Source: an uncultured Trueperaceae bacterium
GTDB taxonomy: Bacteria; Deinococcota; Deinococci; Deinococcales; Trueperaceae
Assembly: GCA_913057165.1 (NCBI GenBank)
Contig: CAJXNS010000017.1
Span: forward strand, 1 to 32,001
Direction: 5' to 3'
DNA: 32,001 nucleotides
Part shown: one piece after another, positions 18,568-22,416 of the stretch
Layout of the letters: each line of letters starts with the position of its first letter
How positions within the stretch are numbered: position 1 is the stretch's first letter
Translations under genes and position numbers: made by a program
The notes under the pieces: generated by a model
What the model was told of the DNA's origin: nothing
Database searches by the model: none
Seen by the model: only the letters and a program-made list of their open reading frames with translations

Positions 18568-19358
18568 TCAAGCGTCACGCACGCAAGCAGACCGGATCTC
18601 ATGGGCGAGGGCCGCCACGTCACCACCGTCGCCTGCCGTCTTGACGATGGCACTTCCGACGACCACGCCATCGGCCACATCGGCGACCGGTTTGGCGGTG
18701 GCGGCCCCACTGACGCCAAAACCGACGGCGACCGGCAGGTCGCTGACGGCCTTCACCCGCCGCACGAGATCGGGGACGTCCGCCGGTAAGGCGTCGCGGG
18801 CGCCGGTGACGCCGGTCACCGATACGGCGTATATAAACCCTCTACATGCGTCTGTGACACGCTTTAGACGTTCTTCGGTGGAGGTAGGTGCCACCAGAAA
18901 CACCGTATCTAAGTCCACGTCACGGGCTGCCTGAATCAGTGTGTCACCTTCATCGGGAGGTAGGTCAGGGAGGATCAGGCCTGCTGCACCAGCTGCCTTG
19001 GCTGCCTGCACAAAGCCGGCTTCGCCGCCATCCTCGTAGCAGTAAATCGGGTTGTAGTAACTCATGATCACGACCGGTGTGGACGTTTCAGCGGTGAGGT
19101 CGCGCACCATGTCCAGGACATCTTGGGTGGTGACGCCCGAAGCCAGCGCTGTTTCGCTGGACCGCTGAATGGTGGGTCCGTCACCGAGTGGATCGGAGAA
19201 CGGCAAACCAACCTCAAGAACGTCAGCAGCCTCAAGCAGCGTCTTGGCGTTGCGCATGAACGCACGGCGGTCTGGGAAGCCAGCCGTCATGTACGGCACA
19301 AAGGCCGAACGGCCGTCGCTGGCGGCCGCCTCGAAAGCCCCGCGTAGTCTTCCAGCCG

Positions 19359-19362
<4 letters not shown>
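18568..19362 (-). CDS. trpA: Tryptophan synthase alpha subunit
   Basis: A 264-residue TIM-barrel subunit that cleaves indole-3-glycerol phosphate to indole and glyceraldehyde 3-phosphate. The motif [13 protein letters not shown], then [19 protein letters not shown] with the catalytic Glu, and [12 protein letters not shown] with the catalytic Asp are present; phosphate-binding residues follow in [13 protein letters not shown] and VAVGFGVSG. The GTG start overlaps the trpB stop (GTGA), the usual coupled arrangement for the alpha2beta2 enzyme. Only 4 bp separate its stop from the convergent rlpA stop. Confidence 0.95.
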
Positions 19363-20576
<1,214 letters not shown>

Positions 20577-20620
20577 CAGGCAACACCTTTCAGTGCTTTG
20601 TGTATTGAGGGGGAGGTCAG

Positions 20621-20692
20621 AAGGTATGGATCAACGCTTACAGCGCAGAATCCGGCTCGGTCGCACATGAAGGCCTATTCACCAGCGTTGAT
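20621..20692 (-). promoter_or_regulatory. Possible trpBA attenuation structure
   Basis: In the minus-strand RNA, AUCAACGCU (20684-20692), which covers the His-Gln-Arg codons and the first base of the Trp codon of the leader peptide, is perfectly complementary over 9 bp to AGCGUUGAU (20630-20638). Two nt after the second arm, AUACCUU (20621-20627) can pair (one G-U) with AAGGUGU (20583-20589), the trpB ribosome binding site. AGCG of the second arm can also pair locally with CGCU over a GUA loop. No T-tract is seen, so control would be translational. Which fold is ON cannot be decided by eye. Confidence 0.5.
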
Positions 20693-20735
20693 GGCGAATC
20701 TTAAACGCGCGTGGGGTGCGAACGCGACCGCTCAT
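20679..20735 (-). CDS. Putative trp leader peptide (18 residues, ends in Trp)
   Basis: ATG 20735 to TGA 20679 encodes MSGRVRTPRAFKIRHQRW. The only Trp codon is the last sense codon. The ATG lies exactly 6 nt after a TAAGAT box, so the mRNA would start at the ATG and be translated without a Shine-Dalgarno. The reading frame is far too short to be significant alone; the support is promoter placement, the terminal Trp, the adjacent inverted repeat and its position 103 nt before trpB. Confidence 0.6.
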   Translation of the reverse strand: MSGRVRTPRAFKIRHQRW

Positions 20736-20741
20736 GTCCCA

Positions 20742-20771
20742 ATCTTAGCGACTGCGACTTCGGGCTGTAAA
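20742..20771 (-). promoter_or_regulatory. Promoter of the trp leader and trpBA
   Basis: TTTACA (20766-20771), an 18-bp spacer and TAAGAT (20742-20747) on the minus strand. The -35 matches TTGACA at five of six positions. The predicted transcript start falls on the leader-peptide ATG. Confidence 0.65.
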
Positions 20772-21027: not shown

Positions 21028-22416
21028 TTAAGGGCATTTGCCCCAGCTTGGTTTTTGCGTCCATGCTGAGGACGTGTTGTCATCAAACAGCAACGGCTCT
21101 GAAGAAATTTCTGCCACACACCAATTGCTGATGTCTTGGTTAAAAGCGTCCGCGTAATAAAACATGGAGCCCATGCTTTTGACGTTGGTGGTGTCCCAAC
21201 CGCCTATAGGCTGGTCAAAACTCTTGGTGTCATGAAACATGTAATTCATGTCTAGGACGTTGCTGGTGTCCCACTCGCCGATGGGTTGGTTGAAGGCATC
21301 TGCGCTGTCAAACATGCCTGTCATGTCTAGGACGTTGCTGGTGTCCCACTCGCCGATGGGCCGGTTGAAAGCATCTGCACCGTGAAACATGCCTTTCATG
21401 TCGGTGACGTTGCTGGTGTTCCAGCCGCCGATGGGTTCGTTGAAGGCGTTGGCTTTGAAGAACATAAAAGTCATGTATTCGACGTTGCTGGTGTCCCACT
21501 CGCCGATGGGTTGGTCGAATTCATCTGCATCGTAAAACATGCCTGTCATGTCTGTGACTTTGCTGGTGTCCCACTCGCCGATGGGTTGGTTGAAGGCATC
21601 TGCGCTATCAAACATGCCTGACATGTCTTCGACGTTGCTGGTGTCCCAGTGGGTAATGTTTTCGTTAAAGGCGGTTTTGTCCAGAAACATGTTGTGCATG
21701 TCGGTTATTCCGGACGTGCAGGTGGTGCTGAGTTGATTCAAGCCGTTTGGTCCCGCGCCATTTCCGATCAGTTGGTCAAGTTGGTTGCGGGTGCGTTTGG
21801 TGTAAGTGATGAGCGTGTCACCGTTGAGGGCGAGGAGGCCTTCGTCACCTGGTGTGGCGTCTTCACATTTGATGGTGATGCCGTTTGGGTGGATGTAGAA
21901 GCCATTGGTGGTGGGGGTGCGTTCAATGTCGAGTGTGTTGGTGAGGGGTTGGTTGTTGAGTGTAGCGGTGAGCCTAATGTCGCCTTTTCCGAGGGGCTTG
22001 TAGGTGGCGGTGTAGGTTCCGTCGCCATGGTCGGTGGTGTTGCCGATCTGGCCTGCTGCGGCGTTGATGGTGAGCGTGCCGCCGCTTTGGGTGTAGGGGT
22101 TGTCGTATTGATCTCTTAGTTGAACGGTGATGGTGATCTTGTCAATGCCGTTGCTGGTGACGGTGGGGCTGTCAGTGGCGATGGTGCTTGTTGATAGGGA
22201 TGCTTCTGCAGGTACTTCTGCCGTTGCTTGGTTGGCGTCTTGGATTTCTGTTGAGGCGGTGAAAGAGGCGTAACCGCAGCTTGTGATGGCTGTAAGGCTA
22301 ACCAAGTAGAAAACGACGTTTACGAGTCGCTCAGTTCGTTTGAGAAAGAATTTGTTCAACAACACCAGCGAAAACTTACCACTAGTTGTAAGGAACAGTG
22401 AGTTGGTGGCTGCCAA
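21028..22416 (-). CDS. BspA-like repeat surface lipoprotein with an Ig-like domain
   Basis: Up to 462 residues. A hydrophobic segment (NVVFYLVSLTAITSC) ends in the lipobox I-T-S-C, Cys 47, indicating a lipoprotein. Residues about 78-165 resemble an invasin-type bacterial Ig-like domain (DKITITVQLRDQYDNPY, GDGTYTATYKPLGKGDIRLT). Eight 25-residue DUF285/BspA repeats follow (237-436), with the pattern V-x-D-M-x-x-M-F, then A-F-N-Q-P-I-G-E-W-D-T-S-N. The end carries two cysteines (NWCVAE and GKCP). The TTG 22416 start lacks a ribosome binding site; TTG or GTG codons at 22359-22365 would give a more normal signal peptide, so the true start is uncertain. Such proteins mediate adhesion or surface interactions. 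Less GC-rich sequence and isolation suggest acquisition by transfer. Confidence 0.8.
   Translation of the reverse strand: MAATNSLFLTTSGKFSLVLLNKFFLKRTERLVNVVFYLVSLTAITSCGYASFTASTEIQDANQATAEVPAEASLSTSTIATDSPTVTSNGIDKITITVQLRDQYDNPYTQSGGTLTINAAAGQIGNTTDHGDGTYTATYKPLGKGDIRLTATLNNQPLTNTLDIERTPTTNGFYIHPNGITIKCEDATPGDEGLLALNGDTLITYTKRTRNQLDQLIGNGAGPNGLNQLSTTCTSGITDMHNMFLDKTAFNENITHWDTSNVEDMSGMFDSADAFNQPIGEWDTSKVTDMTGMFYDADEFDQPIGEWDTSNVEYMTFMFFKANAFNEPIGGWNTSNVTDMKGMFHGADAFNRPIGEWDTSNVLDMTGMFDSADAFNQPIGEWDTSNVLDMNYMFHDTKSFDQPIGGWDTTNVKSMGSMFYYADAFNQDISNWCVAEISSEPLLFDDNTSSAWTQKPSWGKCP
21109..21708 (-). repeat. Eight tandem 75-bp units encoding DUF285/BspA repeats
   Basis: The eight 25-codon units in the lipoprotein gene are also similar at DNA level. 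The block GTGTCCCACTCGCCGATGGG recurs in several units on the plus strand, and units 2 and 6 are nearly the same (both encode DMSGMFDSAD- or DMTGMFDSAD-AFNQPIGEW). Such similarity allows changes in repeat number by slippage or recombination. Confidence 0.85.

Follow-up and report, generated by a model that had tools for sequence, protein, structure and literature searches.

The trpBA operon of an uncultured Deinococcota bacterium is preceded by a short leader gene, and comparison with relatives indicates that selection acts on the amino-acid sequence of the leader, the conserved element being the peptide. As the best explanation of the whole, to which we give a probability of roughly 60%, we propose that the leader peptide, through its specific sequence, keeps the ribosome at the peptide's end and averts premature transcription termination.

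The trpBA leader and its promoter

The window (the whole stretch of 32,001 nucleotides that was analysed) comes from a draft genome of 1.78 Mb whose host belongs to the Trueperaceae, Deinococcota; the closest named relatives of its TrpB are Trueperaceae and Truepera MAGs, followed by Thermus. On the minus strand it carries trpB (tryptophan synthase beta, 19359-20576; TIGR00263, E 3e-182) and trpA (tryptophan synthase alpha, 18568-19362; TIGR00262, E 3e-72), with AAAGGTG at 20584-20590 as a candidate Shine-Dalgarno sequence for trpB. The leader gene lies 102 nt upstream of trpB on the same strand (20679-20735; 18 codons, MSGRVRTPRAFKIRHQRW). Its single Trp codon, TGG (20682-20684), is the last sense codon and is followed by a TGA stop (20681-20679), and the conserved core of the peptide, RVRTPRAFKIRHQRW, as delimited by invariance and pN/pS, is encoded at 20682-20726. 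A -35-like TTTACA (20766-20771) is separated by 18 bp from a -10 element, TAAGAT (20742-20747), which lies 6 nt upstream of the ATG at 20735; the transcript is predicted to start at or adjoining this ATG, i.e. to be leaderless. Also encoded in the window, at 21028-22416 on the minus strand, is a protein that matches TIGR02167 and NF045896, families of PARCEL-repeat surface proteins.

Re-reading of the minus strand confirmed all that the initial annotation had stated of the sequence here (promoter, frame, TGG codon and the arms of an inverted repeat). Its claim of a genuine leaderless leader peptide also stands: because relatives keep both the frame and the leaderless promoter, these are far beyond chance. 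All 75 leaders that we extracted have TANNN[T/C] 5-10 nt upstream of the start codon, at a spacing of 6 in 42 of them; as the motif was itself an extraction criterion, what carries information is how tight the spacing is and how few candidates were lost. By the same Pribnow-like TANNNT criterion, about 40% of genes in Deinococcus-Thermus are leaderless (PMC3160421), and the trpBA leader, judged by its sequence, has such an element at the expected place, about 10 bp before the start codon.

Conservation and distribution of the peptide

The peptide was first spotted by eye 5′ of trpB in relatives and then turned into a profile. Strong matches were obtained in 31 of 39 family genomes (E 2.9e-8 or better, range 1e-8 to 1e-12), the next match being at 0.018, with one leader per genome except for a contig-edge duplicate in G013. 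Across the phylum the profile search found the leader in about 80 of 111 genomes, a set to which Deinococcus proper does not belong, including Marinithermus-like, Meiothermus-like and Thermus-like genera (labels beyond the named MAGs were assigned by kinship). None of 25 genomes from other phyla gave a credible match; one genome of the non-Trueperaceae set had two at E 0.04-0.05, which were taken as chance. Among 28 genomes from named records, solely the two Trueperaceae had the leader.

For most family genomes in which the leader is missing, the assembly contains no full match to trpB, and in G005 the region upstream of trpB is lost at a contig edge. In G008, trpB has its own leaderless start and the leader is absent; nor did the profile search find the leader in Thermus parvatiensis or in groups f2 and f5 of the phylum set. 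The leader is thus dispensable, being missing in some relatives. Where downstream DNA was read, the leader precedes trpB or, at one locus (L137), an EamA-type transporter gene and then trpB, and therefore marks the operon, not just the gene. The EamA-type gene, which was named by resemblance and lies in genome G021, suggests a tryptophan-related transporter under leader control. Two further profile matches (L181 and L183) were discarded as chance, since they lacked both trpB and a leaderless promoter.

The leader follows the consensus R-x-R-T-P-R-x-[FY]-K-x-x-H-Q-R-W, which is kept across Deinococcota. The residues R, R, T, K, H and W never vary among the 31 Trueperaceae leaders; the invariant Arg uses five or six codons, Thr uses all four, and the stop codon varies, lying 0-16 codons past Trp. 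Codon identity in these leaders is 81-82% at positions 1 and 2 and 53% at position 3, with a pN/pS of 0.27 for the true frame against 1.4-1.65 for the shifted frames. Over the Trueperaceae, Meiothermus-like and Thermus-like groups pN/pS ranges from 0.12 to 0.27 in frame (0.15 in Meiothermus-like leaders) and exceeds 1 out of frame. It is only 0.46 in group f3, where the end of the peptide is altered (HQRFW; KWAFHHG). The spacing from RTP..[FY]K to H and W is constant in Trueperaceae, with a shifted end in f3. The leader thus shows a sequence feature of arrest peptides of the TnaC and SecM kind, in that amino acids rather than codons are kept, at a fixed spacing from the putative arrest point.

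Trp codons, termination and control of trpBA

The window leader has one Trp codon, Trueperaceae leaders have 1-3 and Meiothermus-like leaders 2-5, and a position near the leader end, as the initial annotation had it, is usual in relatives. By its Trp codon the window leader resembles a trpL-type attenuator. The codon proved to be invariant in Trueperaceae but not beyond them: in Thermus-like leaders the terminal Trp is replaced by Tyr or wholly absent, with the other residues kept, and six of these leaders (e.g. MRVRTPFAFKRKHGRYRGPGLFPVGLRR, then stop) have no Trp codon at all and still show a pN/pS of 0.12. That the peptide is kept in such leaders suggests that the peptide, and not Trp codons alone, controls the genes, and it is mainly because of them that we propose a role for the peptide beyond presenting Trp codons. 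Zero-Trp leaders could respond to another signal, or could be constitutive. The trpB leader L267, of the Thermus-like genome G043, has diverged (MRVRTPFACTRWHGWYRP, then stop); its FK motif is gone and two Trp codons have been gained, which may reflect a swap between peptide-based and codon-based control.

In Meiothermus-like genomes T1, a hairpin rich in GC that carries a U-tract, begins within a few nucleotides of the leader stop, and a second hairpin (T2; CUCGAGG-loop-CCUCGAG-U5) lies 3′ of it. Four pairs of T1 are changed on both sides and 93% of cells are paired; none of 500 shuffles was equally good, and slid versions were poor. As a candidate antiterminator set by ribosome position, pairing of the T1 3′ arm with the T2 5′ arm was suggested by eye alone, and the alternative pairings of the window are not conserved. 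Intrinsic terminators supported by covariation are thus found in the Meiothermus-like members and not in Trueperaceae. Among the latter, strong hairpins immediately 3′ of the stop occurred only in g14 and L135 (z about -3, without U-tracts), and an intrinsic terminator was rejected as a general feature of the family.

In the 55 nt after the leader stop of Trueperaceae, C minus G is +0.20, against +0.01 in 142 upstream background segments (p = 7e-10), a compositional signal drawn from related, non-independent sequences and set against a background that includes promoters. These 55 nt are also less structured than the background. In the window, the stretch between leader and trpB at 20589-20628 (minus strand) has 16 C and 3 G in 40 nt and is a candidate Rho loading region. 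A rho gene is present in 42 of 46 genomes, the window's included, and the C-rich, G-poor RNA together with the presence of rho fits Rho-dependent attenuation in Trueperaceae. The window gave no Rfam match, including to the T-box family RF00230 in the leader, and no T-box or other Rfam element was found at trpB in relatives, the T-boxes of these genomes sitting elsewhere. Many of the genomes have T-box-like elements at a distance of about 1 kb from rho, on the other strand (e.g. G053:C5, G050:C22, G011:C120, G000:C18).

In the model that we favour, the nascent R-x-R-T-P-R-x-F-K-x-x-H segment in the exit tunnel would slow or stop the ribosome at Q-R-W, and the terminal Trp codon or codons of most members would make this slowing depend on charged tRNA-Trp, whose scarcity, or another signal, would prolong the pause. 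The parked ribosome would cover the RNA just 3′ of it and block premature transcription termination, so that trpBA would be expressed when tryptophan is short; once a ribosome had finished and left the leader, transcription would stop. In Meiothermus-like genomes the stop signal would be the intrinsic terminator, whose first arm starts at the leader stop codon and, from the geometry, would be covered by a ribosome on the last codons or the stop. In Trueperaceae, including the window, it would probably be Rho-dependent termination. We put forward only tentatively the stronger proposal that R-x-R-T-P-R-x-[FY]-K-x-x-H-Q-R-[WY] represents a new class of nascent-peptide sensor, leaderless across Deinococcota, arresting by tryptophan status or another trpBA signal independently of Trp codons and with interchangeable outputs (intrinsic or Rho).

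Classical attenuation by charged tRNA, in which the Trp codon or codons alone matter and the other residues have been kept by chance or shared ancestry, would account for the 1-5 Trp codons near the end of all Trueperaceae and Meiothermus-like leaders and for the terminators that follow the latter. The same phylum also has classical WWW leaders before trpE. We nevertheless consider it rather unlikely, as the non-Trp residues are under strong selection while synonymous change is free, and as the peptide is kept in the six leaders with zero Trp codons. The trpE leaders themselves are an internal control for the peptide-level conservation of the trpBA leader: outside Trueperaceae they are classical leaderless Trp runs that keep little else (MKRFAVRFWWWPG, then stop; Thermus-like MSPLPALWWPG, then stop), at a pairwise identity of 14%, in contrast to 75%.

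Conservation at the amino-acid level, in a basic, Arg-rich peptide, is also what would be expected of a small trans-acting product that binds, for example, RNA or protein, and such an action has been reported for the leader peptide peTrpL of Sinorhizobium meliloti (PMC7298713). The strict linkage to the trpB operon with no second copy elsewhere, and the variable C-terminal extension of 0-16 codons past the core, make this improbable here. Even less probable is a leader that merely boosts translation of trpB by ribosome delivery or reinitiation. Leader genes close to downstream genes have been proposed as reinitiation aids, in Deinococcus-Thermus too (PMC4833913), but the gaps of 49-379 nt seen here exceed the 10-11 bp peak of that study, and the conservation of the peptide would be left without explanation.

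The initial annotation had proposed a translational switch, in which a ribosome positioned on the Trp or stop codon would release or prevent pairing of two 9-nt arms and hence change access to the trpB start. The arms do exist on the minus strand, AUCAACGCU (20692-20684) being perfectly complementary to AGCGUUGAU (20638-20630), 45 nt apart, and AUACCUU (20627-20621) could pair with AAGGUGU at the trpB start. However, 16 of 300 dinucleotide shuffles of 20583-20771 (about 5%) also yield a perfect helix of 9 bp or more, which makes the inverted repeat weak evidence by itself. The minimum free energy fold lacks the helix and pairs the second arm locally with GGAUUCUGCGCU instead; forcing the helix costs 4.9 kcal/mol, its pair probability in the isolated RNA is about 0, and the overall fold of the leader region has z = 0.17. 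The longest match of the H-Q-R-W codons to the RNA separating the leader from trpB is 9 in the window and 3-6 bp in 28 Trueperaceae relatives, the level of shuffles, and the arms are unique to the window among 29 leaders, the nearest relatives lacking them. In relatives 49-379 nt separate the leader stop from trpB (968 in a single genome, where a gene intervenes), the intervening RNA has no structure in some (L141, MFE 0.0), no pairing that would gate the Shine-Dalgarno sequence is conserved, and the control output of Meiothermus-like members is a terminator. At the level of sequence, a conserved switch of this geometry is excluded and one specific to the window is unlikely, which leaves the translational reading with a very slim chance. 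A local hairpin over the Trp codon (CAUCA/UGGUG) was not counted, since it is largely dictated by the codons CAY-CAR-NNN-UGG-UGR.

Known systems and sister leaders

Leader-peptide attenuation and arrest peptides are already known as kinds. Like classical trp attenuators (E. coli trpL; Corynebacterium and Streptomyces trp, PMC1262725), the trpBA leader is a short Trp-codon ORF before trp genes, and the terminator after the classical leader is matched by the Meiothermus-like members; unlike them, it is read from a leaderless mRNA, is conserved along the entire peptide, sometimes lacks Trp codons, and in Trueperaceae is not followed by a conserved intrinsic terminator. TnaC of the E. coli tna operon (PMC8429421, PMC10941005) likewise has conserved residues spread through a short leader, and its ribosome arrest with a Rho-dependent output is the analogy that we propose. 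The two sequences are unrelated, and TnaC switches on a catabolic operon at high Trp, whereas trpBA is biosynthetic and its Trp sensing putative. The leaderless cysteine leader ORFs of mycobacteria (PMC4633059, PMC1262725) share the leaderless layout, a conserved sequence and no obvious intrinsic terminator, and Rho-dependent attenuation has been proposed for them (PMC1262725); they use runs of Cys codons, whereas the trpBA leader has one or zero regulatory codons.

The peptide did not turn up in a literature search on trpBA leaders in Deinococcus and Thermus; the search did not extend to the older subscription literature on Thermus trp genes, and a prior description is possible. In the papers searched, subscription titles aside, we found neither this peptide nor its leaderless setting nor its retention in the absence of the regulatory codon. 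A biosynthetic leader kept phylum-wide by its amino-acid sequence, even without a regulatory codon, blurs the boundary between codon-counting attenuation and nascent-peptide arrest. As natural variants with zero, one and three Trp codons exist, the contributions of peptide and codon are directly separable, with a short core and the Thermus ribosome as a standard structural object.

The leaders of trpB, trpE and leu point to leaderless leaders as a family, within a phylum on whose amino-acid regulation the literature searched says little. The initial annotation had noted the same leaderless layout at the leu leader of the window, and this holds, also for trpE operons. The leu leader (MIFRRRLRVIQARQRVYLTPPEGAGS, then stop) precedes leuCDB-ilvD at 13235-13155 on the minus strand, with TTGACA-17-TACGTT-7-ATG. 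It is a conserved peptide as well: relatives have R-R-R-L-x-x-I-x-x-R before leuC with the same -10 spacing, several followed by strong GC hairpins, and the window itself has a hairpin with a T7 run after the leader, at about 13118-13083. The peptides conserved in the leu (RRRLRVI) and trpE (SWTGVLGRWR) leaders of Trueperaceae differ from that of trpBA. In six Trueperaceae trpE leaders (L214, L222, L224, L225, L227 and L232) the conserved leaderless peptide is S-W-T-G-[VA]-L-G-R-W-R; sister families have plain WWW leaders before trpE.
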